From a bacterium (GTDB lineage Bacteria > UBP15 > UBA6099 > JAJRTR01), in the NCBI GenBank assembly GCA_024278215.1, contig JAJRTR010000072.1, positions 1 through 38,561 on the forward strand: 38,561 bases of DNA, in the 5' to 3' direction. Position 1 is the first letter of the stretch; each line of letters opens with the position of its first letter. The notes beneath the pieces were generated by a model. The model saw only the letters and a program-made list of their open reading frames with translations, had not been told where the DNA came from and searched no databases. Shown here in pieces: positions 5,581 to 37,968 of this stretch. The translations under genes were made by a program, and so were the position numbers.

Positions 5581-6531
5581 ATGACTGGAATAAAACGAAC
5601 AACCTTTTTTTGTCTCATGATCTTTCTATGTCTGTCGTTGCGGTCGGCAGCGCTCGAAAGGGTGATTGTCGGGCTGCCTGTGATCAAAGGCATGGAAAAA
5701 ACAAGCATGGTCGATCTGTTCACCGATATAGTTAATACGGTGTCCGGAAAGATGGATGTAAAAGCGATTCCGAATATTTTCACTTATGAACATGACGACG
5801 ATGTCGCAAAAATTGTGATGGATAATGTGGAAAGCGGCGACTCGGACATCATTTTCTGGACGGGACAGGATTATTCGGAATATCTCGACACGGGGAAAGA
5901 TACGCTCGTACCGCTTTTTTCACTGACAATGATGGGCAAGACAATTGTCGACAGCTGCATCTATGCCCGAAAGGGAGAGATCAAGAATATTTCTGAGCTT
6001 CGCGGCAAACGATGGGCCGGCACACGGGTCTCACCGACACGCTACCTGCTGTATAAAGAAGGCATCGACGAGCCGGTCGACAAGTTTTTCGGCTCTGTTC
6101 AGTTCAAGTCGGATTCGCCTATAACAAACATAGTCGAGGGGCTCGAAAACAACGAGTACGATGCTTTCACATCTTATGATACATACATAGGCATATCCGG
6201 AATGGACACTAAAAAAGACAAACCGTTCGAGCCGGTGGTCTGCCACGAATACGACAATACGTGGACGTTCATGGCGAGCAAGCGGCTGCCACACGAATTT
6301 ATGGAGAAGTACAGGAAGATCATGCTTAAATCATATAAGGACCCTGACTTCGCTAAATTCAAATTCGCATTTAATATGATCAGAGGCAGGTTCATACCGG
6401 TGAAGAATGATGAAGTGCAAAGAATAAAAAAGATATATGATCTGAGGATTGAAAAAGGCTGGGACAGAGAAGATAAGAAGTTCTGGAAAGAGTATTACAG
6501 TCCGCCGGAAAAGGAAAAAGAAAAAGAATGA
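5581..6531 (+). CDS. Periplasmic substrate-binding protein, PhnD-like (paralogue 1)
   Basis: 316 residues. A signal peptide (about 1-25, ending SLRSAA) is followed by a type-2 periplasmic-binding fold: IVGLPVIKGMEK opening, DIIFWTG (about 85-91), NISELRGKRWAG (about 140-151), the SPTRYLLYKEGID helix (about 154-166) and a C-terminal AKFKFAFNMIRGRF segment. The ELRGKRW and RYLLYKEGID region resembles phosphonate/phosphite binding proteins of the PhnD group, which bind a small anion for an ABC importer or a signalling protein. The tail is a run of Lys and Glu. GGAAGGA lies about ten bases before the ATG. No permease or ATPase is next to it, so it may be an orphan sensor or receptor. The gene at 6818 is a clear paralogue. 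The ligand is unknown. Confidence 0.75.
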   Translation: MTGIKRTTFFCLMIFLCLSLRSAALERVIVGLPVIKGMEKTSMVDLFTDIVNTVSGKMDVKAIPNIFTYEHDDDVAKIVMDNVESGDSDIIFWTGQDYSEYLDTGKDTLVPLFSLTMMGKTIVDSCIYARKGEIKNISELRGKRWAGTRVSPTRYLLYKEGIDEPVDKFFGSVQFKSDSPITNIVEGLENNEYDAFTSYDTYIGISGMDTKKDKPFEPVVCHEYDNTWTFMASKRLPHEFMEKYRKIMLKSYKDPDFAKFKFAFNMIRGRFIPVKNDEVQRIKKIYDLRIEKGWDREDKKFWKEYYSPPEKEKEKE

Positions 6532-6817: not shown

Positions 6818-7774
6818 ATGAAAAAAATAATTACAACCGCATTACTTGTCATGGCGATATTCGCAACCGCGACCTACGCGCAGGAAGAGCATGAAAAATA
6901 CATTGTCGGTTTACCCATGCCGGCAGGAATGGAGAAATCCAGCATTGCCGGTTTGCTCAAAGATATCGTCGCGTATGTTGGAGAGTTGCTCGGCGAAGAC
7001 ACGGAAGCAAAAGTGCTCGTGTATGAATACGGGACCGACGTCGCAAAATTTGTTGAAGAAAAAATGGAATCCGGAGAAGTAGATGTCAGCTACCTGCTCG
7101 GCAATGAGTATGCGGCTTATCTTGATTCCGGCAAAAATAATCTGACACCGTTTTTCACACTTTCGATGTCCGGCCAGTCGATCATGCCCACGTGTCTTTT
7201 CGCGGCGAAAGGCAAATACAAAAGTGTCGAAGACCTGCGGGGGCTCAGGTGGGGCGGTGTGTATACCCAGCCGACTCGTTACCTGCTCTACAAAGCAGGC
7301 ATAGACGAGCCTCTGGATAAATTCTTCAGCGAAGTCAAGTTTGTCAGCGACATGCCGGTTACAGGCCAGATAGAGGGATTCGATAACGGCGATTATGATG
7401 TCTTCAACACCTACGATGTAACACTGCGTGTCGCAGGTTACATGAACAAGAAAGACATTTCATTCGAGCCGGTTTCATGCGTCGATTATAATTATTCGTG
7501 GATATTCTTATATCGCGACGGACTCGACGAAAAAGTGATGGAGGAATTCCGTGACCTGATGATAGGTGCGGATAAAGATAAAAGGTTCGCAAAATTTCAT
7601 TTTGCTTTCAAGATGATACAGGGGCGGTTCGGGCCGATAGACTATGATGAACTTGATAAAGTAGTCGATATATATAAATTGGGAAAGAAACATGGCTGGG
7701 ACAAGGAAGAGAAAAAGTACTTCAAAGAACAGTCGAAAATGAAGGCGGGTCATAAAAAATCAGGAGATAGCTGA
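6818..7774 (+). CDS. Periplasmic substrate-binding protein, PhnD-like (paralogue 2)
   Basis: 318 residues, paralogous to the preceding gene over its whole length: IVGLPMPAGMEKSS, DVSYLLGNEYAAYLDSG, SVEDLRGLRWGG, QPTRYLLYKAGIDEPLDKFF and AKFHFAFKMIQGRFGPI all have direct counterparts. The signal peptide is clearer here (MKKIITTALLVMAIFA..AYA, cleavage before Gln22). The C-terminus is Lys-rich. A Shine-Dalgarno-like GGGG lies shortly upstream. An R1 repeat element fills the 286-bp gap to paralogue 1, and no promoter was seen in the gap, so the pair may share a transcript through the element. The ligand and partner are unknown; a role like PhnD-type anion binding is an inference from the fold. 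Confidence 0.75.
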   Translation: MKKIITTALLVMAIFATATYAQEEHEKYIVGLPMPAGMEKSSIAGLLKDIVAYVGELLGEDTEAKVLVYEYGTDVAKFVEEKMESGEVDVSYLLGNEYAAYLDSGKNNLTPFFTLSMSGQSIMPTCLFAAKGKYKSVEDLRGLRWGGVYTQPTRYLLYKAGIDEPLDKFFSEVKFVSDMPVTGQIEGFDNGDYDVFNTYDVTLRVAGYMNKKDISFEPVSCVDYNYSWIFLYRDGLDEKVMEEFRDLMIGADKDKRFAKFHFAFKMIQGRFGPIDYDELDKVVDIYKLGKKHGWDKEEKKYFKEQSKMKAGHKKSGDS

Positions 7775-29570: not shown

Positions 29571-29906
29571 TTATGGCGTCACCAGGCAATGTTTATCACC
29601 CTTAGAAAAATAATCCGCCAACAATTCAAGAACATCGTCCCGCACCGTGTAATAAGACCACTGTCCACATTGATAAACATTCACAATACCAGCATATCTC
29701 AACTCTTTGAGATGATGCGACAGGGTCGGAGCCGACACATTAAGTTGATTGAGAATCTCGCAGACGCAGACAGCACCATCAGGAACATCATCCGACCTGT
29801 TTCCGTTCCTGCATTGAACAACATCCGCGTGTCCATTACGGATTATCTCGAACGCCTTGAGCCGGTTCCTGTTCGAAAGCGCTTTAAATATCGTTGATAA
29901 ATCCAT
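29571..29906 (-). CDS. arsR: ArsR-family metalloregulator of the ars unit
   Basis: 111 residues. Winged-helix ArsR/SmtB repressor: FKALSNRNRLKAFEII opening, AVCVCEILNQLNVSAPTLSHHLKELRYAGIV (about 45-75), with Cys47 and Cys49 in the CVC pair at the start of the recognition helix, the alpha-3 arsenite site of ArsR. Extra cysteines at 32, 80 and 107 may help bind. It should release its operator when arsenite or antimonite binds. GGGAG lies seven bases before the ATG. First gene of the arsR-arsC-acr3 unit; arsC follows directly. A promoter and a 16-bp palindrome stand about 140-190 bases upstream. Confidence 0.93.
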   Translation of the reverse strand: MDLSTIFKALSNRNRLKAFEIIRNGHADVVQCRNGNRSDDVPDGAVCVCEILNQLNVSAPTLSHHLKELRYAGIVNVYQCGQWSYYTVRDDVLELLADYFSKGDKHCLVTP

Positions 29907-30278: not shown

Positions 30279-32636
30279 TCACCCTGATGTGTCGTTTTGT
30301 TTTATCAGTCTAAGGCTGTTGATTATAACTATGAGAGAAGCGCCCATGTCGGCGAAAACCGCCATCCAGAGAGTAGCGATACCGCCGACAGCCGCAATAA
30401 GAAATACAACTTTTATCAATAGTGAAAGGATTATGTTTTGCTTTATCACATACAGTGTTTTTCTGCTGAGTTTTATTGCGTAGGGCAACTTGCGAAGATC
30501 ATCGGACATCAGGGCAATGTCCGCCGTTTCAAGAGCGGCGTCAGTGCCGGCGGTGCCCATCGCGATCCCGATAGTTGATGCGGCCAGAGCCGGTGCATCG
30601 TTTACGCCATCGCCCACCATAGCAACCGTTCCATATTCGTCGAGCAGAGTCTTTATCGCATCGAGCTTATCTTCCGGCAAGAGGTCGGCCTTGATTTCAT
30701 CAATATCAAGTTTTTCCGCGATGGCCTGCGCTGTCCATAAATTGTCTCCGGTCAACATTATGGTTTTCTGTATTCCGCCCTCTTTAACTTTCTTCAAAGC
30801 CTCCCGGCTTATCTCCCTGACATCATCCGCTATCGCTATGAGGCCGAGTATCGCCTGCCCGTTTCCCACCAGAACAACAGTCTGGCCTTTTCCCTCCAGT
30901 TCCATAAGTTGTTTATCTCTCGCGCTATCGCAGAACCCCATTTCCTCGAAGAGACGATGGTTCCCGATATAAAACAATTCGCCTTCGACTGTTCCTTTCG
31001 CCCCTTTCCCGGTGATGGCTTCAAACTCCTCGGCCTCGGTATGAGACACTCCAAGCTCGACCGCCTTTTCCAATATCGCTTTCCCCAGATGGTGCTCGGA
31101 GCGCGATTCGAGCGCGGCGGCTACCCGCAAAACAGCTTTTACGTCTTTTTCGTCGACCGGTATTATTTCAACCACGCGCGGAACTCCGTGGGTAAGTGTG
31201 CCGGTTTTATCGAATGCAATTGCCTTCAGGTGGCCCATCGCTTCAAGGTATACGCCTCCCTTGATCAAAACGCCGTTGCGTGCTGCTGTGGAAAGTGCCG
31301 TGACGATGGCAACCGGTGTCGAGATAACCAACGCGCACGGACACGCTATAACCAGTAGTACGAGAGCGCGATATATCCACGGTGTGAACGGCTGGTTGAA
31401 AAACAGCGGCGGGATACTCACAACGAGAAGAGAAGCCAGAATCACGAGTGGAGTATAGTACTTCGCAAATCTGTCTACGAATTTCTGAGAGGGCGCTTTC
31501 TGCGATTGCGCTTCCTCTATCATGTGGATGATTCTTGAAAGGGTTGTGTCTTTTGACAGTTTCGTCACGCGCAATTCAACAGTTCCACGTTCATTAAGTG
31601 TGCCTGCGAAAACTTCGTCGCCCGGTTCTTTTTTTACCGGCAGGGATTCGCCTGTTATGGGTGCCTGGTTTATGTACGTGTTTCCCCGGACGACTTCGCC
31701 GTCCATAGGAATCTTTTCCCCCGGTTTTATCAAAACTACTTCCCCGATTTCGATATCTTTCACATCGACATCCACGACAGCCCCGTTCCTGCGAACCGCG
31801 GCATGATTGGGGGCAATCTGCATCAGGGTTCTGATCGCCCTGCGGGCACGATCCATACTGTATGTTTCAAGTAGATTTGCTAAAGAGAAAAGGAAAACCA
31901 CCATAGCGGCTTCCTGCCACTCGCCGATAGCGGCGGCACCAGTCACCGCGATAACCATCAGGCAGTTCATATCGAGACTGCGATTTTTGAGGGCTGTCCA
32001 TCCCTTGCGTGCCGTAAGTGCTCCGCCAGTGACAATCGCCGGGATATATAACAGGTATGTAAGTGAATCCGGGAACTTGTGGATATAACCGTGAAAAATT
32101 GCGGCAAGCAGCAGCACTCCTGACGCGGCTGTTAATATCATTTGCCTGTTTTTAACAAAAAATGATGTCGAAGTGTTTTCCCCATCGTTTTCGGAGTCCA
32201 CAATTTCGGCTTTGAAGCCCACCGACTTAACCGCTCTTTTTATATCTTCCGTCTCGCACGTATGTGTCACAATCACGTTTTGTTCAACGAGGTTGAACCG
32301 AAAATCAAGAATCCCGTTAACGGACAGTAACTTTTTTTCAATAATTGAAGACTCATCCGCACAATCCATTCCTTCAATACTGAAAGTCGTGCTGCTCTCT
32401 CCGGAAAGTACATTTGACGTATAGCCCGCCTGCGATATCCGTTTTATAATCTCTTTTGGATCAACAGAATTATCATCAGCGGCAAGCACCGTGATAGTCG
32501 AACTCATGAGATTGACATTAACCCGCTCAATCCCGTCGAGGCCCAAAAGAGTACTTTCCAACCCTTCCACACAACTTGCGCAGTCGATACCCTCGACACT
32601 CAGTTTGATCTTTTTCCGTCCAGTCTCATTTTTCAT
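30279..32636 (-). CDS. Heavy-metal P1B-type ATPase (Zn/Cd/Pb group)
   Basis: 785 residues. Two N-terminal HMA domains: the first has GIDCASC (Cys19, Cys22), the second GMDCADES (Cys92) lacking the second cysteine, with Asp/Glu in its place as in other Zn/Cd pumps. Membrane part with the ion-site ACPCALV (Cys432-Pro-Cys434), TGES (328-331), phosphorylation site DKTGTLT (Asp476), and later MLTGDN and VGDGVNDAPALAAS. The HP motif reads SRSEHHLG rather than SEHP. CPC with such HMA domains fits the CadA/ZntA group that expels Zn, Cd and Pb from the cytoplasm. AAAGGA is ten bases before the ATG. An R2 element lies in its upstream region; whether it has its own promoter or is read from the operon above is unclear. 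Confidence 0.94.
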   Translation of the reverse strand: MKNETGRKKIKLSVEGIDCASCVEGLESTLLGLDGIERVNVNLMSSTITVLAADDNSVDPKEIIKRISQAGYTSNVLSGESSTTFSIEGMDCADESSIIEKKLLSVNGILDFRFNLVEQNVIVTHTCETEDIKRAVKSVGFKAEIVDSENDGENTSTSFFVKNRQMILTAASGVLLLAAIFHGYIHKFPDSLTYLLYIPAIVTGGALTARKGWTALKNRSLDMNCLMVIAVTGAAAIGEWQEAAMVVFLFSLANLLETYSMDRARRAIRTLMQIAPNHAAVRRNGAVVDVDVKDIEIGEVVLIKPGEKIPMDGEVVRGNTYINQAPITGESLPVKKEPGDEVFAGTLNERGTVELRVTKLSKDTTLSRIIHMIEEAQSQKAPSQKFVDRFAKYYTPLVILASLLVVSIPPLFFNQPFTPWIYRALVLLVIACPCALVISTPVAIVTALSTAARNGVLIKGGVYLEAMGHLKAIAFDKTGTLTHGVPRVVEIIPVDEKDVKAVLRVAAALESRSEHHLGKAILEKAVELGVSHTEAEEFEAITGKGAKGTVEGELFYIGNHRLFEEMGFCDSARDKQLMELEGKGQTVVLVGNGQAILGLIAIADDVREISREALKKVKEGGIQKTIMLTGDNLWTAQAIAEKLDIDEIKADLLPEDKLDAIKTLLDEYGTVAMVGDGVNDAPALAASTIGIAMGTAGTDAALETADIALMSDDLRKLPYAIKLSRKTLYVIKQNIILSLLIKVVFLIAAVGGIATLWMAVFADMGASLIVIINSLRLIKQNDTSG

Positions 32637-33009: not shown

Positions 33010-33516
33010 CTACAACGCCTCGGAAGATGTTTTTTCAGCGGAATCACCCACATTGCATGAACTCACATCACTCAGTTCCATACTGGACCTGGTGCCTGTA
33101 AACTTACTTCCGTCCGGCGCGATCCACGTAGGTATCTTCTTGATACCTTTTGCTTTACAGAACTCGGAAAACTTCCGGCTTCCGTTCGGACTGCACTCGA
33201 TATAATTGATGTATTTAAAAGACTTTCCGAAAATCGCCTTCTGTTTGGCGCAATTAGGACACCAGTGTGTGCCGTACATTTTGTAGCCTCTGGAAGTAAG
33301 GCATTTTGCCAGTGCGTCATGAGGACCCGGCCGCAATAGGCTTACCGTTATTGCGGAGCCCCCGACAAGCGCGGCTATCGAAAGAATAACGGCAATAACT
33401 ATACGTCGGCGGCGGCGATCCGCGATTTTCTTTTCGACATCCTTCTCAAGGCAGCATTTCTTATATTTCAAACCACTCCCGCAGGGACAGGGCGCATTCC
33501 TCTTTATTGACGGCAT
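33010..33516 (-). CDS. SEC-C motif, membrane helix and thioredoxin-like domain fusion
   Basis: 168 residues. The first 22 residues are a SEC-C zinc motif (Cys10-x-Cys12, then Cys21-Cys22: APCPCGSGLKYKKCC). A basic stretch RRRRR (34-38) precedes one membrane helix (39-61), so by the positive-inside rule the SEC-C end is cytoplasmic. The outer part (about 66-150) is a thioredoxin-like domain: MYGTHWCPNCAKQKAIFG with Cys86-x-x-Cys89, then YINYIECSP and a cis-proline IPTW (Pro129). The MYGxxWCPxCxxQKxxFG wording is that of the domain fused to vitamin-K-epoxide-reductase-like proteins, which pass disulfides. GAGGAGG lies before the ATG. Last gene of the metal operon; it may keep cysteines of its secreted neighbours in the right state (inference). 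Confidence 0.82.
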   Translation of the reverse strand: MPSIKRNAPCPCGSGLKYKKCCLEKDVEKKIADRRRRRIVIAVILSIAALVGGSAITVSLLRPGPHDALAKCLTSRGYKMYGTHWCPNCAKQKAIFGKSFKYINYIECSPNGSRKFSEFCKAKGIKKIPTWIAPDGSKFTGTRSSMELSDVSSCNVGDSAEKTSSEAL

Positions 33517-34039: not shown

Positions 34040-34546
34040 TCAGGATATAAGGACAATCGTATTGATTGAAGCCGGCATGAAATTGTTTGTTGCATGATAG
34101 TTTTTACGTATGGATATTGCAGATGATAAATTGAGAGCGTCAACAGGCTTAATGAAAAGGAAAACATTAAAAGGAATTCTTTTAATATCAAGCAGCTTAC
34201 CTCTGTCACCTTTTTTTATAATGAATTGCTTCACGGAATTTGAAATGGATAAAGGAATGTCTTTGCATGAATCGCCGGCACTGCATTCATATCGGTCGAC
34301 AACAACGTTTTTTTGTTCTGCGGGTCCTGATTCCAGCGCATCGGAAGGGATAGCTTCATTGCTGTAATTCGCCCCGCATGTGTTCGGGGGCAAATAAGAC
34401 TTGGCGTCTTCAACCTCAATCGCAACCTGTCCGTCGCTATAAAGACACAGCACCATTCCATCGACTATTCCGGTGCCGAAAAACAGATACCCGAACAGGA
34501 TGAGCATTGCAGTGCTTTTTATGCGATCGGCTTTCTTGAAGATCAT
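34040..34546 (-). CDS. Secreted four-cysteine protein, paralogue A (unknown function)
   Basis: 168 residues. A signal peptide or anchor (about 12-30, TAMLILFGYLFFGTGIVDG) is followed by a mature part with four cysteines (34, 57, 88, 94). Not a family I can name. It is paralogous to the gene at 36971: both have GMVLCLYSDGQVAIE / GLVLCVSDNGRVAIE, then Cys, then CSAGDSCKDIPLSIS / DCGDSCHDVDISIS, and end in a hydrophobic TIVLIS / TVILLT. The fixed cysteine spacing suggests disulfides or a metal site, and the hydrophobic C-terminus may hold the protein at the membrane. GGGGGA lies before the ATG. It is part of the metal operon between the outer-membrane protein and the receiver genes. Confidence 0.7.
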   Translation of the reverse strand: MIFKKADRIKSTAMLILFGYLFFGTGIVDGMVLCLYSDGQVAIEVEDAKSYLPPNTCGANYSNEAIPSDALESGPAEQKNVVVDRYECSAGDSCKDIPLSISNSVKQFIIKKGDRGKLLDIKRIPFNVFLFIKPVDALNLSSAISIRKNYHATNNFMPASINTIVLIS

Positions 34547-34703: not shown

Positions 34704-35525
34704 TCAGAAAGCATACTGAGCGCTCATAACGTAACCGTTGCCAAGGCCGACCTTTGATGTGGAGTTGATGTCCCCGGCGTCGACGAAAGCGCCCACGAGC
34801 GAGAGATTCTTATTCACGAACCATGCGACATGCGCATCCCAGTAGTCGGCATTTTTAAAATCGCTGAATCTCGCTCCCTGCTTGAACTCCAGTCCCAGCG
34901 CGAGGTTCGGCAAAGGCAGGATAGCCACGTTTCCGAATATCGTGAGATCACGTTTTGAATCGTGCCCGAATACACCCGTCACAAGCTCATCTGTGGACAG
35001 CAGGCCGCCTGATACGAGGATCGGTTTCGATGTGGAAGTAAAAAGTTTCGTCCCGACGATATAAAGGTCCAGACCGGACTTGCTGAAGCCGGCTCCGGGG
35101 TTGATGTCGGTGTCCTTCCATATTCCACCTATCGATACTGCCGGTACAGACTTGTTGCCGTTCTTGTTTTCAGGAACGATAAGATATTTCATACCGAGAT
35201 TGTTCTTATGGATGTTGTCGCCGTTGTCCACGGCGATCAGTTCGTAGCCATAAGATAATTCGAGTCGATCCCCGATAGTTTCGGCCACCCCGTTTGCGAC
35301 CCAGTCTACATTTGCCTTGCCCAGTTTCACGTACCAGCCGCCGATCTGAGGATTGCTCAACCTCTGGCCGGCTTTGGCGTTCTGCCCGGCAGGATATGCA
35401 AGCGGGTTGAAAGCGATACCGCCCACTCCCTGAAGGTTGTTAAGCGGTACGCCCGCAGCGGAGGGAATGGAATTCACGATCAGGATACCTATTGCTAAAA
35501 TGATGGTCTTTACATGCGAGTTCAT
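34704..35525 (-). CDS. Outer-membrane protein, DUF3034 type
   Basis: 273 residues. Signal peptide (about 1-24, ending PSAAG), then GVPLNNLQGVGGIAFNPLAYPAG, the start typical of DUF3034 proteins. The rest is alternating polar/non-polar strands (YVKLGKANVDW, LELSYGYELI, AVSIGGIWKD, LDLYIVGTKLF, LALGLEFKQG, WDAHVAWFVN, LSLVGAFVDAGDI) ending in SAQYAF, with the C-terminal aromatic residue recognised by the outer-membrane assembly machinery. A small beta-barrel is likely. Members of this family occur near metal-efflux genes, but their role is not established. AAAGGAG lies seven bases before the ATG. Middle gene of the metal operon. Confidence 0.8.
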   Translation of the reverse strand: MNSHVKTIILAIGILIVNSIPSAAGVPLNNLQGVGGIAFNPLAYPAGQNAKAGQRLSNPQIGGWYVKLGKANVDWVANGVAETIGDRLELSYGYELIAVDNGDNIHKNNLGMKYLIVPENKNGNKSVPAVSIGGIWKDTDINPGAGFSKSGLDLYIVGTKLFTSTSKPILVSGGLLSTDELVTGVFGHDSKRDLTIFGNVAILPLPNLALGLEFKQGARFSDFKNADYWDAHVAWFVNKNLSLVGAFVDAGDINSTSKVGLGNGYVMSAQYAF

Positions 35526-35574: not shown

Positions 35575-36009
35575 TCACCAGCAGCCCCATCCGCCATATA
35601 CCTGGCGCCCATTCGGATTATTGCCGTCCCATCCGCCATAACCGCATCCGCATCCATAGTAGTGTCCTCCGCTATATGATGCCGGAGCGGGTGTGTAAGC
35701 ACGCGAGTCACCCCAGTTCTGCCGTGACATCTGCTGTCCTCTGTGCCGGTTATAGCTGTACTGATCGGCATAATTACGGTTGTTGTCCCATTGCCGGGAG
35801 TAGTTCACATTCGCCGGATCGTGGCCGCAGCCATAGTAATGTTCATGTCCGCTGTAGTTGCTATTCTGCAGATAGTGTTCACAACCATAGTAATGCTGAT
35901 GCTGCGCGGTCTGTGACACCTGTCCGATCGTAGCCTTTGCAGTCAGAACGACTGCCACCGCAATAATAGCGACCAGTCCGAGTAACTTGATATTCCTGAT
36001 CTTATTCAT
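35575..36009 (-). CDS. Secreted HYYGC-repeat protein with GWGCW end
   Basis: 144 residues from the ATG at 36009, chosen because AGGAG stands about eight bases upstream; an earlier in-frame start would read through that site. Signal peptide (about 8-29, LLGLVAIIAVAVVLTAKATIG). The mature part is rich in Tyr, Gly, Asn, His and Cys with no known domain. It carries His-Tyr-Tyr-Gly-Cys motifs: HYYGCEHY (39-46), HYYGCGHD (57-64) and HYYGCGCG (116-123), the first two exactly 18 residues apart, and ends in GGWGCW (139-144). The same motif and the same ending occur in the gene just upstream. His and Cys in a repeated pattern suggests metal binding in the envelope, which is an inference. I know of no named family. 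Confidence 0.75.
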   Translation of the reverse strand: MNKIRNIKLLGLVAIIAVAVVLTAKATIGQVSQTAQHQHYYGCEHYLQNSNYSGHEHYYGCGHDPANVNYSRQWDNNRNYADQYSYNRHRGQQMSRQNWGDSRAYTPAPASYSGGHYYGCGCGYGGWDGNNPNGRQVYGGWGCW

Positions 36010-36063
36010 CGTTACAGCTCCTTTTTTAGTTTTTTTCGTTTCGCTGACCGGCAATCGCCGAAA

Positions 36064-36846
36064 TCACCAGCAACCCCAGCCCCTGTTGTTCCGCCCGTCA
36101 TAGTGTCCGCAGCCGTCGTAATGCTGATGGTAACCATCCGAGTTGATATAGTGAGAACATCCGTAGTAATGGCCCTGTTCACCATGAGACATGCTGCCGT
36201 TATAATGCCCGCAACCATAGTAGTGGCCCTGGTTGGGACCGCTCTGAGGAAGGGCCGATGTCTGTGAATTACCCTGCAATCGGTAGTCGGCTCCCGGAGC
36301 CGCCGTTTCCATCGTTACGATATTGCCGCAATTGATCATCTCACTACCGAAATACGGATTGCGCGCAGTCGGATATGTCTGAACCCAATTGCTGTTTTTC
36401 ATCGGGCAGTTGAATACGAAGTACCGGCTCGCGAGTTCCGGCGGAAAATAATTCTTCACGAGCGTAATAATTGCTTCACTCAAGGGGGCGAAAGCCGCAC
36501 GGGCTCCGTCCAGTTTGAGTTTTTTATCCGTTAAAGGCTTTGCGGCTTTTTCAACATCACCAAGAGCCTTTTTCAGGTCATTGCCTTTATCCGCACCGGT
36601 AAGCTTCAGAGCGGAATCCACAAACGTGACTATGGAATTCGCATGTTCTCTCACGCCATCTACCGAATCCGCGGTGAGCGCCTCATGAATCCGGAGATAG
36701 CTGAACGTAACCAGATTCATATTGTCCTGCAACGATTTCTCCTGGCCGGCGGCGTGAGATGCACCTGCGAACAATGCACCATATATTGCCATCGTCACCG
36801 CTATTATCGTTACTGCTGTTTTTATCTTGTTTTTTGTAAGTTCCAT
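36064..36846 (-). CDS. Secreted DUF3347-like protein with C-terminal HYYGC repeats
   Basis: 260 residues. Signal peptide (about 10-33, ending SHAAG). Residues about 35-185 are helical and then carry FNCPMKNSNWVQTYP (145-159) and NPYFGSEMINCGNIV (163-177): the CPM..W and NPYFG..M..CG motifs end DUF3347 domains, which are known as stand-alone periplasmic proteins or parts of CusB-type copper-efflux adaptors. After a short linker come HYYGCGHY (208-215), HYYGCSHY (226-233) and HYDGCGHY (242-249), then RGWGCW at the very end (255-260). The repeats and ending match the next gene, so the two are related by their tails only. AAAGGAG precedes the ATG by nine bases. I infer binding of copper, zinc or a similar ion outside the cytoplasm. 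Confidence 0.82.
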   Translation of the reverse strand: MELTKNKIKTAVTIIAVTMAIYGALFAGASHAAGQEKSLQDNMNLVTFSYLRIHEALTADSVDGVREHANSIVTFVDSALKLTGADKGNDLKKALGDVEKAAKPLTDKKLKLDGARAAFAPLSEAIITLVKNYFPPELASRYFVFNCPMKNSNWVQTYPTARNPYFGSEMINCGNIVTMETAAPGADYRLQGNSQTSALPQSGPNQGHYYGCGHYNGSMSHGEQGHYYGCSHYINSDGYHQHYDGCGHYDGRNNRGWGCW

Positions 36847-36970: not shown

Positions 36971-37486
36971 TCAGGTCAGAAGAATAACTGTGCTTAAAGA
37001 ATAAAGCGTTGAATTTACACCATGAGAATATTCTACGGGGTCATTTAAAAAACGATTCAGCGGAAACAGCGCCGTCGGTGTTGCCGACAACACAGCATAA
37101 ACATTATTCGGCAATGGCGATATCTTTAACGCTGTTTTGGCACGCACTATTTTTGCGATAGCTGCAACTGCGGAAATGGAAATGTCGACATCGTGGCACG
37201 AGTCGCCGCAATCTTTTTGTGAATCATCCGCGGCAGTAACAGAAATGCCCCGTGCATTTTTCAGGGGGGCGATTAAGTCGCTTTTTCCCTCATTCATAGT
37301 GCAGAATTCCATATTAACGGCATTGAATTCTTTTTCATCGAGTTCGATGGCAACTCTGCCGTTATCAGAAACACAGAGGACAAGCCCCTCCGCAACCCCG
37401 GCCCCGTAAATCGTATACATGACCAAGATGAGAAGCGCCAGTCGCTTACGTGACTGTAGAATTTTCTTGAAAAAGGTCTTCTTCAT
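36971..37486 (-). CDS. Secreted four-cysteine protein, paralogue B (unknown function)
   Basis: 171 residues. A membrane or signal segment (about 16-34, LALLILVMYTIYGAGVAEG) with a basic N-terminus is followed by cysteines 38, 62, 93 and 97, spaced 24, 31 and 4 apart, against 23, 31 and 6 in paralogue A (34040). Shared blocks: GLVLCVSDNGRVAIEL, DCGDSCHDVDISIS and a hydrophobic C-terminus SLSTVILLT. No known domain recognised. It is the first structural gene after the ArsR-type regulator (40 bases), so it should be the most strongly induced. Its ribosome site is weak. Function unknown; a small envelope metal or redox protein is one possibility. Confidence 0.7.
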   Translation of the reverse strand: MKKTFFKKILQSRKRLALLILVMYTIYGAGVAEGLVLCVSDNGRVAIELDEKEFNAVNMEFCTMNEGKSDLIAPLKNARGISVTAADDSQKDCGDSCHDVDISISAVAAIAKIVRAKTALKISPLPNNVYAVLSATPTALFPLNRFLNDPVEYSHGVNSTLYSLSTVILLT

Positions 37487-37526: not shown

Positions 37527-37829
37527 TTAACTTGTTCTGGCCTTCGCCTCTTCCATAAGACAAAGTCCCTGATTCAAAAGACCAACAACGCAGGGATCGG
37601 CAATGGAATAATAAATGTTGTTCCCATTGCGCCGTGTGCTTACGATACCGCGATACACCATCCTCTGAAGTTGATTCGAAACCGCCTGGGGTTTCATCTC
37701 TATCGCTTCGGCCAAATCAGAAACGCATATTTCATCTTCTCGAATAATCGTGTGCAATATTCTCAAACGGGTCTGATTGCCAAGAATCTTGAACATTGAT
37801 TCCAGTTCGGCAGCAGTTTTAATGCTCAT
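37527..37829 (-). CDS. ArsR/SmtB-family metal sensor, regulator of the HYYGC operon
   Basis: 100 residues from the ATG at 37829 (MSIKTAAELESM) with GAGG five bases before it; an in-frame ATG at 37898 would add 23 residues not seen in the family. Winged helix: MFKILGNQTRLRILHTII, ICVSDLAEAIEMKPQAVSNQLQRMVYRGIV (helix-turn-helix at about 35-62), and a wing STRRNGNNIYYSI. Cysteines 35 (start of the recognition helix region), 80 and 90 (DPCVVGLLNQGLC, last helix) could form a Cys3 site as in Cd/Pb sensors such as CmtR, although the exact positions differ. It should repress its own operon without metal. It differs from the ars regulator, which has the CVC pair. Confidence 0.9.
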   Translation of the reverse strand: MSIKTAAELESMFKILGNQTRLRILHTIIREDEICVSDLAEAIEMKPQAVSNQLQRMVYRGIVSTRRNGNNIYYSIADPCVVGLLNQGLCLMEEAKARTS

Positions 37830-37930
37830 AAGACCTCGCTCCCTTATATGAAGCTTCGGTTTGCAGGTTGTTCCGTCTTTCACCGCATCTAAAATCAAAA
37901 TCAGGATTCCCTTCTACACCGCGATCTCTT

Positions 37931-37960
37931 ACACAATTACATTATAGCGTGTATTTGTGT
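37931..37960. promoter_or_regulatory. Inverted-repeat operator overlapping the HYYGC operon promoter
   Basis: ACACAATTAC (37931-37940) and GTATTTGTGT (37951-37960) are inverted repeats (9 of 10) with a ten-base gap that contains the -10 hexamer. This spacing and place are usual for ArsR/SmtB operators. Confidence 0.6.
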
Positions 37961-37968
37961 TCTTTCAA
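37941..37968 (-). promoter_or_regulatory. Sigma70-type promoter of the HYYGC metal operon
   Basis: TTGAAA (37968-37963) and TATAAT (37946-37941) on the minus strand, 16 bases apart, about 110 bases before the regulator start. The -10 lies inside the operator loop. Confidence 0.65.

Follow-up and report, generated by a model that had tools for sequence, protein, structure and literature searches.

SilE is a precedent for a periplasmic metal sponge. The protein is disordered without silver and becomes compact on binding about six ions, and its His/Met repeats have the forms MxxHxxxxxHxxMxx and HxxMxxxHxxMxx (PMC5008109). A second point of comparison is the Leptospira protein LIC13259. An intramolecular disulfide has been predicted for its CPM...C cysteine pair, and results from mutagenesis speak for thiol-disulfide exchange (PMC13344006). 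DUF3347 proteins lie beside metal pumps in many lineages, and there is almost no literature on them.

We analyzed two adjacent genes in a 38,561-nucleotide stretch of bacterial DNA (the window). Their products, P0001 and P0002, share a short repeat and a C-terminus, and we compared them with these systems.

Results

Two adjacent secreted proteins share a repeat and a C-terminus

The two genes and the features shared by their products are as follows.

35575-36009, minus strand: P0001, a 144-aa secreted protein with a signal peptide, three HYYGC repeats and a GWGCW C-terminus, without a family match
35578-35592, minus strand: GWGCW C-terminus of P0001
36064-36846, minus strand: P0002, a 260-aa secreted DUF3347 protein with C-terminal HYYGC, HYYGC and HYDGC repeats and a GWGCW end
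36067-36225, minus strand: HYYGC repeat tail of P0002 (residues 208-260)
36067-36081, minus strand: GWGCW C-terminus of P0002

By eye, each open reading frame is preceded by a plausible ribosome-binding site (AGGAG and AAAGGAG). Both proteins begin with a hydrophobic, signal-like segment, and we infer that both are exported to the periplasm. An initial annotation, made from the DNA sequence, had described three HY[YD]GC motifs per protein, and the positions it gave match exactly (starts at residues 39, 57 and 116 in P0001 and 208, 226 and 242 in P0002). It was also correct that both sequences end in GWGCW, that the repeats of P0002 follow a DUF3347-like domain (which passes the Pfam cut-off, see below), and that P0001 is a signal peptide plus a repeat region: scans of P0001 with Pfam and NCBIfam models found no family, and the Pfam DUF3347 profile did not match it. 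The third repeat of P0002 (position 242) reads HYDGC; the other five read HYYGC.

The motifs were not reproduced by shuffling. In 200,000 composition-preserving shuffles per region (mature P0001 or the tail of P0002), none gave even two motifs, compared to the three observed in each protein.

The repeat unit is H-x3-C-x-[H/C]

We found that the repeat unit is H-x3-C-x-[H/C], spelled H-Y-[Y/D]-G-C-x-[H/C]. At offset +6 from the first His, two residues after the Cys, five of the six repeats have His and one has Cys. The sole departure at this position exchanges one presumed metal ligand for another. Offset +6 is outside the motif used to select the repeats. With the motifs held fixed and the remaining residues shuffled, none of 100,000 shuffles placed His or Cys there in all six repeats (1e-5 if any offset tested is allowed). 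The earlier remark that a residue and then His usually follow the motif was therefore borne out, and the unit is longer than had been noted. His is also found at offset -2 in three of the six repeats (p 0.006, for that offset alone). Mature P0001 contains one Met and eight His, and the His/Met repeats of SilE and PcoE were not found in it.

The repeats do not appear to be recent duplicates at the DNA level. The six repeat 15-mers are all different, and in pairwise comparisons, which are biased in that the repeats were picked by peptide match, they differ at 36/75 third, 0/75 second and 5/75 first codon positions. The first-position differences all come from the one Tyr to Asp change. Because third positions differ freely and second positions do not, the copies are probably old. 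The two GWGCW ends likewise differ only at synonymous sites, and the sequence preceding GWGCW differs between the two proteins.

The repeat appears to be new

We searched for relatives of the repeat with patterns and the P0001 sequence. The pattern HYYGCxHY had 34 single matches in about 85,000 species genomes, a collection that may omit the source genome and very near ones; about 30 were expected by chance (our own estimate from pattern length). None of the 34 was a repeat protein. When translated, the matches were mostly short out-of-context frames, plus some H/Y/G-rich low-complexity proteins (L037, L052). The initial annotation had proposed this search for hits that cluster with particular genes, and what it returned was at chance level. 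Two viral contigs match the pattern.

Searches with P0001 of plasmids, the genomes of the order and 386 genomes recovered its own locus, the tail of P0002 and weak matches only. Among the weak matches that we rejected, L063 falls in an ABC-F gene region, L102 falls in a cytochrome oxidase gene region, and L103 is the His-rich N-terminus of a DUF3347 protein. P0001 matched the source genome only among the seven genomes of the order, in which the source genome is the sole representative of its genus and family. A relaxed pattern found, across the order, only single non-repeat sites outside the window. One extra HYYGC match (contig C144) is in none of the listed HYYGC-bearing frames and was taken as chance.

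The GWGCW-coding sequence is present at only two places in the whole genome, the P0001 and P0002 genes; the initial annotation had asked whether this end recurs, and it was found in these two genes alone. The literature matches listed for GWGCW look, by title, like nucleotide ambiguity strings and not proteins. We found no literature for HYYGC, PDB sequence searches gave nothing useful, and no orthologue of the repeat module was found in any library or collection searched. The HY[YD]GC-x-[H/C] repeat appears to be new.

P0002 belongs to DUF3347, and four relatives in the order end in Cys/His-rich tails

P0002 is a true member of DUF3347 (PF11827; E 1.8e-7, 32.3 bits versus a cut-off of 25.5, residues 49-133). 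The conserved C-terminal core of its DUF3347 relatives, CPM...NPY/F..G..M..CG, is present, and in the form CPM...W.Q...RNPYFG..M..CG it matches four other proteins of the order. P0002 is not a member of the LIC13259/LIC11441 family (NF047615; 33.6 bits versus a cut-off of 100). Because the CPM...C pattern is shared and there is this sub-threshold NCBIfam match, the Cys pair of the DUF3347 core seems to match Cys108 and Cys133 of LIC13259.

In the four other DUF3347 proteins of the order, the core is likewise followed by a tail, of 34-50 aa. These tails are unrelated in sequence to the HYYGC tail, and they are rich in Cys and His and not in Tyr. In contrast, the DUF3347 proteins seen outside the order mostly end 5-17 residues after the MxxCG core, and the few longer extensions in other lineages lack Cys and contain few His, if any. 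The exception is an adaptor (L085) with DUF3347 at its N-terminal side. In other genomes, DUF3347 is often fused at the end of CusB-type adaptors; in L085 (205-1911) the usual order is inverted, with HMBD-like and CusB-like sequence coming after the DUF3347 core.

One of the four proteins is a second DUF3347 copy (paralog) in the source genome. It heads an operon that also encodes two OEP (outer-membrane efflux) proteins, a CusB-type adaptor with HMBD domains and an RND pump.

L097 (contig C47), 930-9336: operon of the source genome's own DUF3347 paralog, complete CusCBA-type

A sensor kinase and a sigma-54-type response regulator are encoded divergently beside this operon.

In the examples found, a Cys/His-rich tail after the DUF3347 core seems to be the rule in the order. 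Given these tails in the relatives of P0002, the best interpretation of the HYYGC tail is a metal-binding extension, one version of a metal-ligand-rich tail. P0001 would then be a free-standing version of the tail, without a detectable relative.

Structure predictions are compatible with disordered repeat regions

AlphaFold predicted a helical bundle at residues 31-133 of P0002. The pLDDT was below 50 for the whole tail of P0002 and nearly all of mature P0001; these were single-sequence runs, in which low confidence is weak evidence of disorder. The values are compatible with repeat regions that are probably disordered. A fold search gave non-significant matches only, mostly to four-helix bundles.

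The genes are in a run headed by an ArsR-family repressor

The P0001 and P0002 genes are part of a minus-strand run. In order, it encodes ArsR, a 171-aa secreted orphan protein, P0002, P0001, a DUF3034 protein, a 168-aa paralog of the 171-aa protein, a response regulator and a SEC-C/thioredoxin-like protein, followed after a gap of 373 nt by a ZntA-like ATPase.

37941-37968, minus strand: sigma-70-like promoter ahead of the ArsR gene, TTGAAA-16-TATAAT (11/12 matches)
37931-37960, no strand assigned: inverted repeat over the -10 box, a candidate ArsR operator (11 nt, 10/11 paired, 8-nt spacer)
37527-37829, minus strand: ArsR/SmtB-family repressor that heads the run (NF033788; 82.7 bits versus a cut-off of 55)
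36971-37486, minus strand: 171-aa secreted orphan protein, paralog of 34040-34546
34704-35525, minus strand: DUF3034 protein with a signal peptide, a probable outer-membrane barrel (PF11231; E 1e-20)
34040-34546, minus strand: 168-aa paralog of the 171-aa protein (31% identity)
33010-33516, minus strand: SEC-C motif plus a membrane-anchored CxxC thioredoxin-like protein (SEC-C over its cut-off; Thioredoxin_2 weak, below its cut-off)
30279-32636, minus strand: ZntA-like Zn/Cd/Pb P-type ATPase with two HMA domains

For the ArsR gene, we prefer the ATG at 37829 as the start; a longer open reading frame begins at 37898. An inverted repeat of this kind occurred anywhere in 2% of shuffled segments. 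A -10 box inside an inverted repeat is the arrangement expected of an ArsR/SmtB operator, and we regard this one as a candidate. The last helix of the repressor contains two Cys (DPCVVGLLNQGLCLMEE) close to the place where SmtB and CzrA use His, and the metal that the repressor senses may differ.

The initial annotation had placed the two genes in an ArsR-controlled operon next to arsenic and Zn/Cd resistance. An ArsR gene does head the run, and the ATPase is ZntA-like. However, the arsenic genes (ArsC and ACR3-type) form another unit, which has its own ArsR (29571-29906) and follows a separate promoter-like site. There is no RND pump within the P0001/P0002 run.

Other proteins of the window have features of their own. 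The 171-aa and 168-aa secreted paralogs, which flank P0001 and P0002 in the run, share a GDSC[HK]D motif. Neither has relatives in the 386 genomes, and the 171-aa protein has none in plasmids. The protein at 33010-33516 has its SEC-C zinc motif before the membrane segment and its CxxC thioredoxin-like domain after it, and could act on periplasmic thiols. Two adjacent paralogous proteins (5581-6531 and 6818-7774) look by eye like periplasmic solute-binding proteins.

Discussion

With moderate confidence, we read the HY[YD]GC-x-[H/C] proteins as a periplasmic metal sponge that is SilE-like but new in sequence. The repeat would be a flexible, exported metal-ligand module, placed behind a DUF3347 helical bundle in P0002 and standing alone in P0001. 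Each repeat would offer His, Cys and His (or Cys) as ligands, and several repeats per chain could bind periplasmic ions of soft or borderline metals (Zn, Cd, Pb, Cu or Ag). Bound metal would be buffered until efflux removes it, as for the SilE and PcoE sponges beside RND pumps, and entry of a toxic metal would probably release expression from ArsR. We favor this reading because the six repeats share H-x3-C-x-[H/C] with only a ligand-for-ligand swap, because the DUF3347 relatives in the order have Cys/His-rich tails and the paralog is in a CusCBA-type operon, because an ArsR/SmtB repressor and a ZntA-type ATPase are encoded nearby and ArsC and ACR3-type proteins farther along the window, and because the candidate operator overlaps the -10 box. 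We infer metal binding, the identity of the metal and induction from sequence, the tails of relatives and gene context. On these grounds a role of P0001 and P0002 with metals is well motivated. The initial annotation had suggested that two secreted proteins, different in other respects, share a metal-ligand module, and the relatives' tails and the metal-resistance context support that part of its proposal; its other suggestion, a common sorting or modification handle, was not supported (see below).

The main rival is a thiol-redox or cross-linked scaffold, in which the cysteines are in disulfides and the Tyr/Gly-rich repeats build a cross-linked envelope or surface layer. We give it this place because the Cys pair of the DUF3347 core appears to match that of LIC13259, with its predicted disulfide and its mutational support for thiol-disulfide exchange. 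Tyr and Gly are conserved in the repeats to the same degree as the presumed ligands, something that a pure sponge would not need, a CxxC thioredoxin-like protein is encoded in the same run, and periplasmic Cys of the repeats may be oxidized to disulfides, which would count against a sponge. However, the His of the repeat, with one swap to Cys, is as conserved as the Cys, the tails of the order's relatives are not Tyr-rich, and the neighborhood is one of metal resistance. We consider a scaffold unlikely.

It is less likely still that the tail with GWGCW is a docking or modification tag, read by a common partner such as a sorting, processing or peptide-modifying enzyme or the DUF3034 protein. 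GWGCW is identical in the two proteins despite the differing sequence before it, and the DUF3034 gene is directly downstream. A handle of general use is hard to reconcile with a sequence encoded only twice in the genome. Known C-terminal sorting signals also have a transmembrane segment and a basic end, both of which are missing here; no modification enzyme was recognized among the neighbors scanned, and an MNIO enzyme (PF05114) was found in none of the seven genomes of the order. Modification of the MNIO type was rejected on the absence of this enzyme from the source genome. We give the lowest probability to drift of H/Y/G/C-rich low-complexity sequence without a specific role, with the second copy made by duplication. 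The sequence is rich in Gly, Tyr, Asn and Gln, it has no orthologue anywhere searched, and the in-frame matches elsewhere are in low-complexity proteins (L037 and L052, above), as such drift would have it. Nevertheless, the peptide is repeated exactly while synonymous differences are near-saturated, the ligand at +6 is fixed outside the selected motif, and the GWGCW ends differ only synonymously.

If the repeats bind metal as a periplasmic sponge, HY[YD]GC-x-[H/C] would be a compact sponge motif based on Cys and His, in contrast to the His/Met repeats found in SilE. DUF3347 proteins might then be platforms for interchangeable metal-binding tails, a role that can be tested. P0001 is small, and the repeat is simple enough for study with synthetic peptides. 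A broader proposal is that HYYGCxH is a new class of repeated metal-coordinating peptide that travels as one unit between a DUF3347 domain and a free-standing exported protein, with conserved Tyr also taking part in ligation or redox, as a lineage-specific, ArsR-controlled periplasmic sponge. We hold this only tentatively, as a possibility that is rather doubtful at present.

Comparison with known systems

P0001 is like SilE and PcoE in being small, exported and probably disordered, with repeated ligand motifs, in a metal-resistance cluster. It differs in that its ligands are His and Cys rather than His and Met, it has no family match, and its run has no RND pump. Because of the different ligands and the lack of model matches, P0001 is not a member of the SilE family, and the likeness would be one of working principle only. 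Bufferins, the MNIO-modified copper-binding peptides, resemble P0001 as small, secreted, Cys-containing proteins in a metal context. The source genome, however, has no MNIO enzyme, and P0001 has no family match.

P0002 has distant similarity to LIC13259/LIC11441 over residues 30-174, including the CPM...CG Cys pair, but the NF047615 model ends with the core and has no repeat tail. With the DUF3347 proteins of Cus/Czc-type efflux operons, P0002 shares the CPM...W.Q...NP[YF]..G..M..CG core and passes the Pfam cut-off. It differs from most relatives outside the order, which end within 5-17 residues, in carrying an 86-residue extension with the HYYGC repeats. Secreted metal-binding tails and sponges near efflux systems are an already known kind of protein; what appears to be new here is the repeat.
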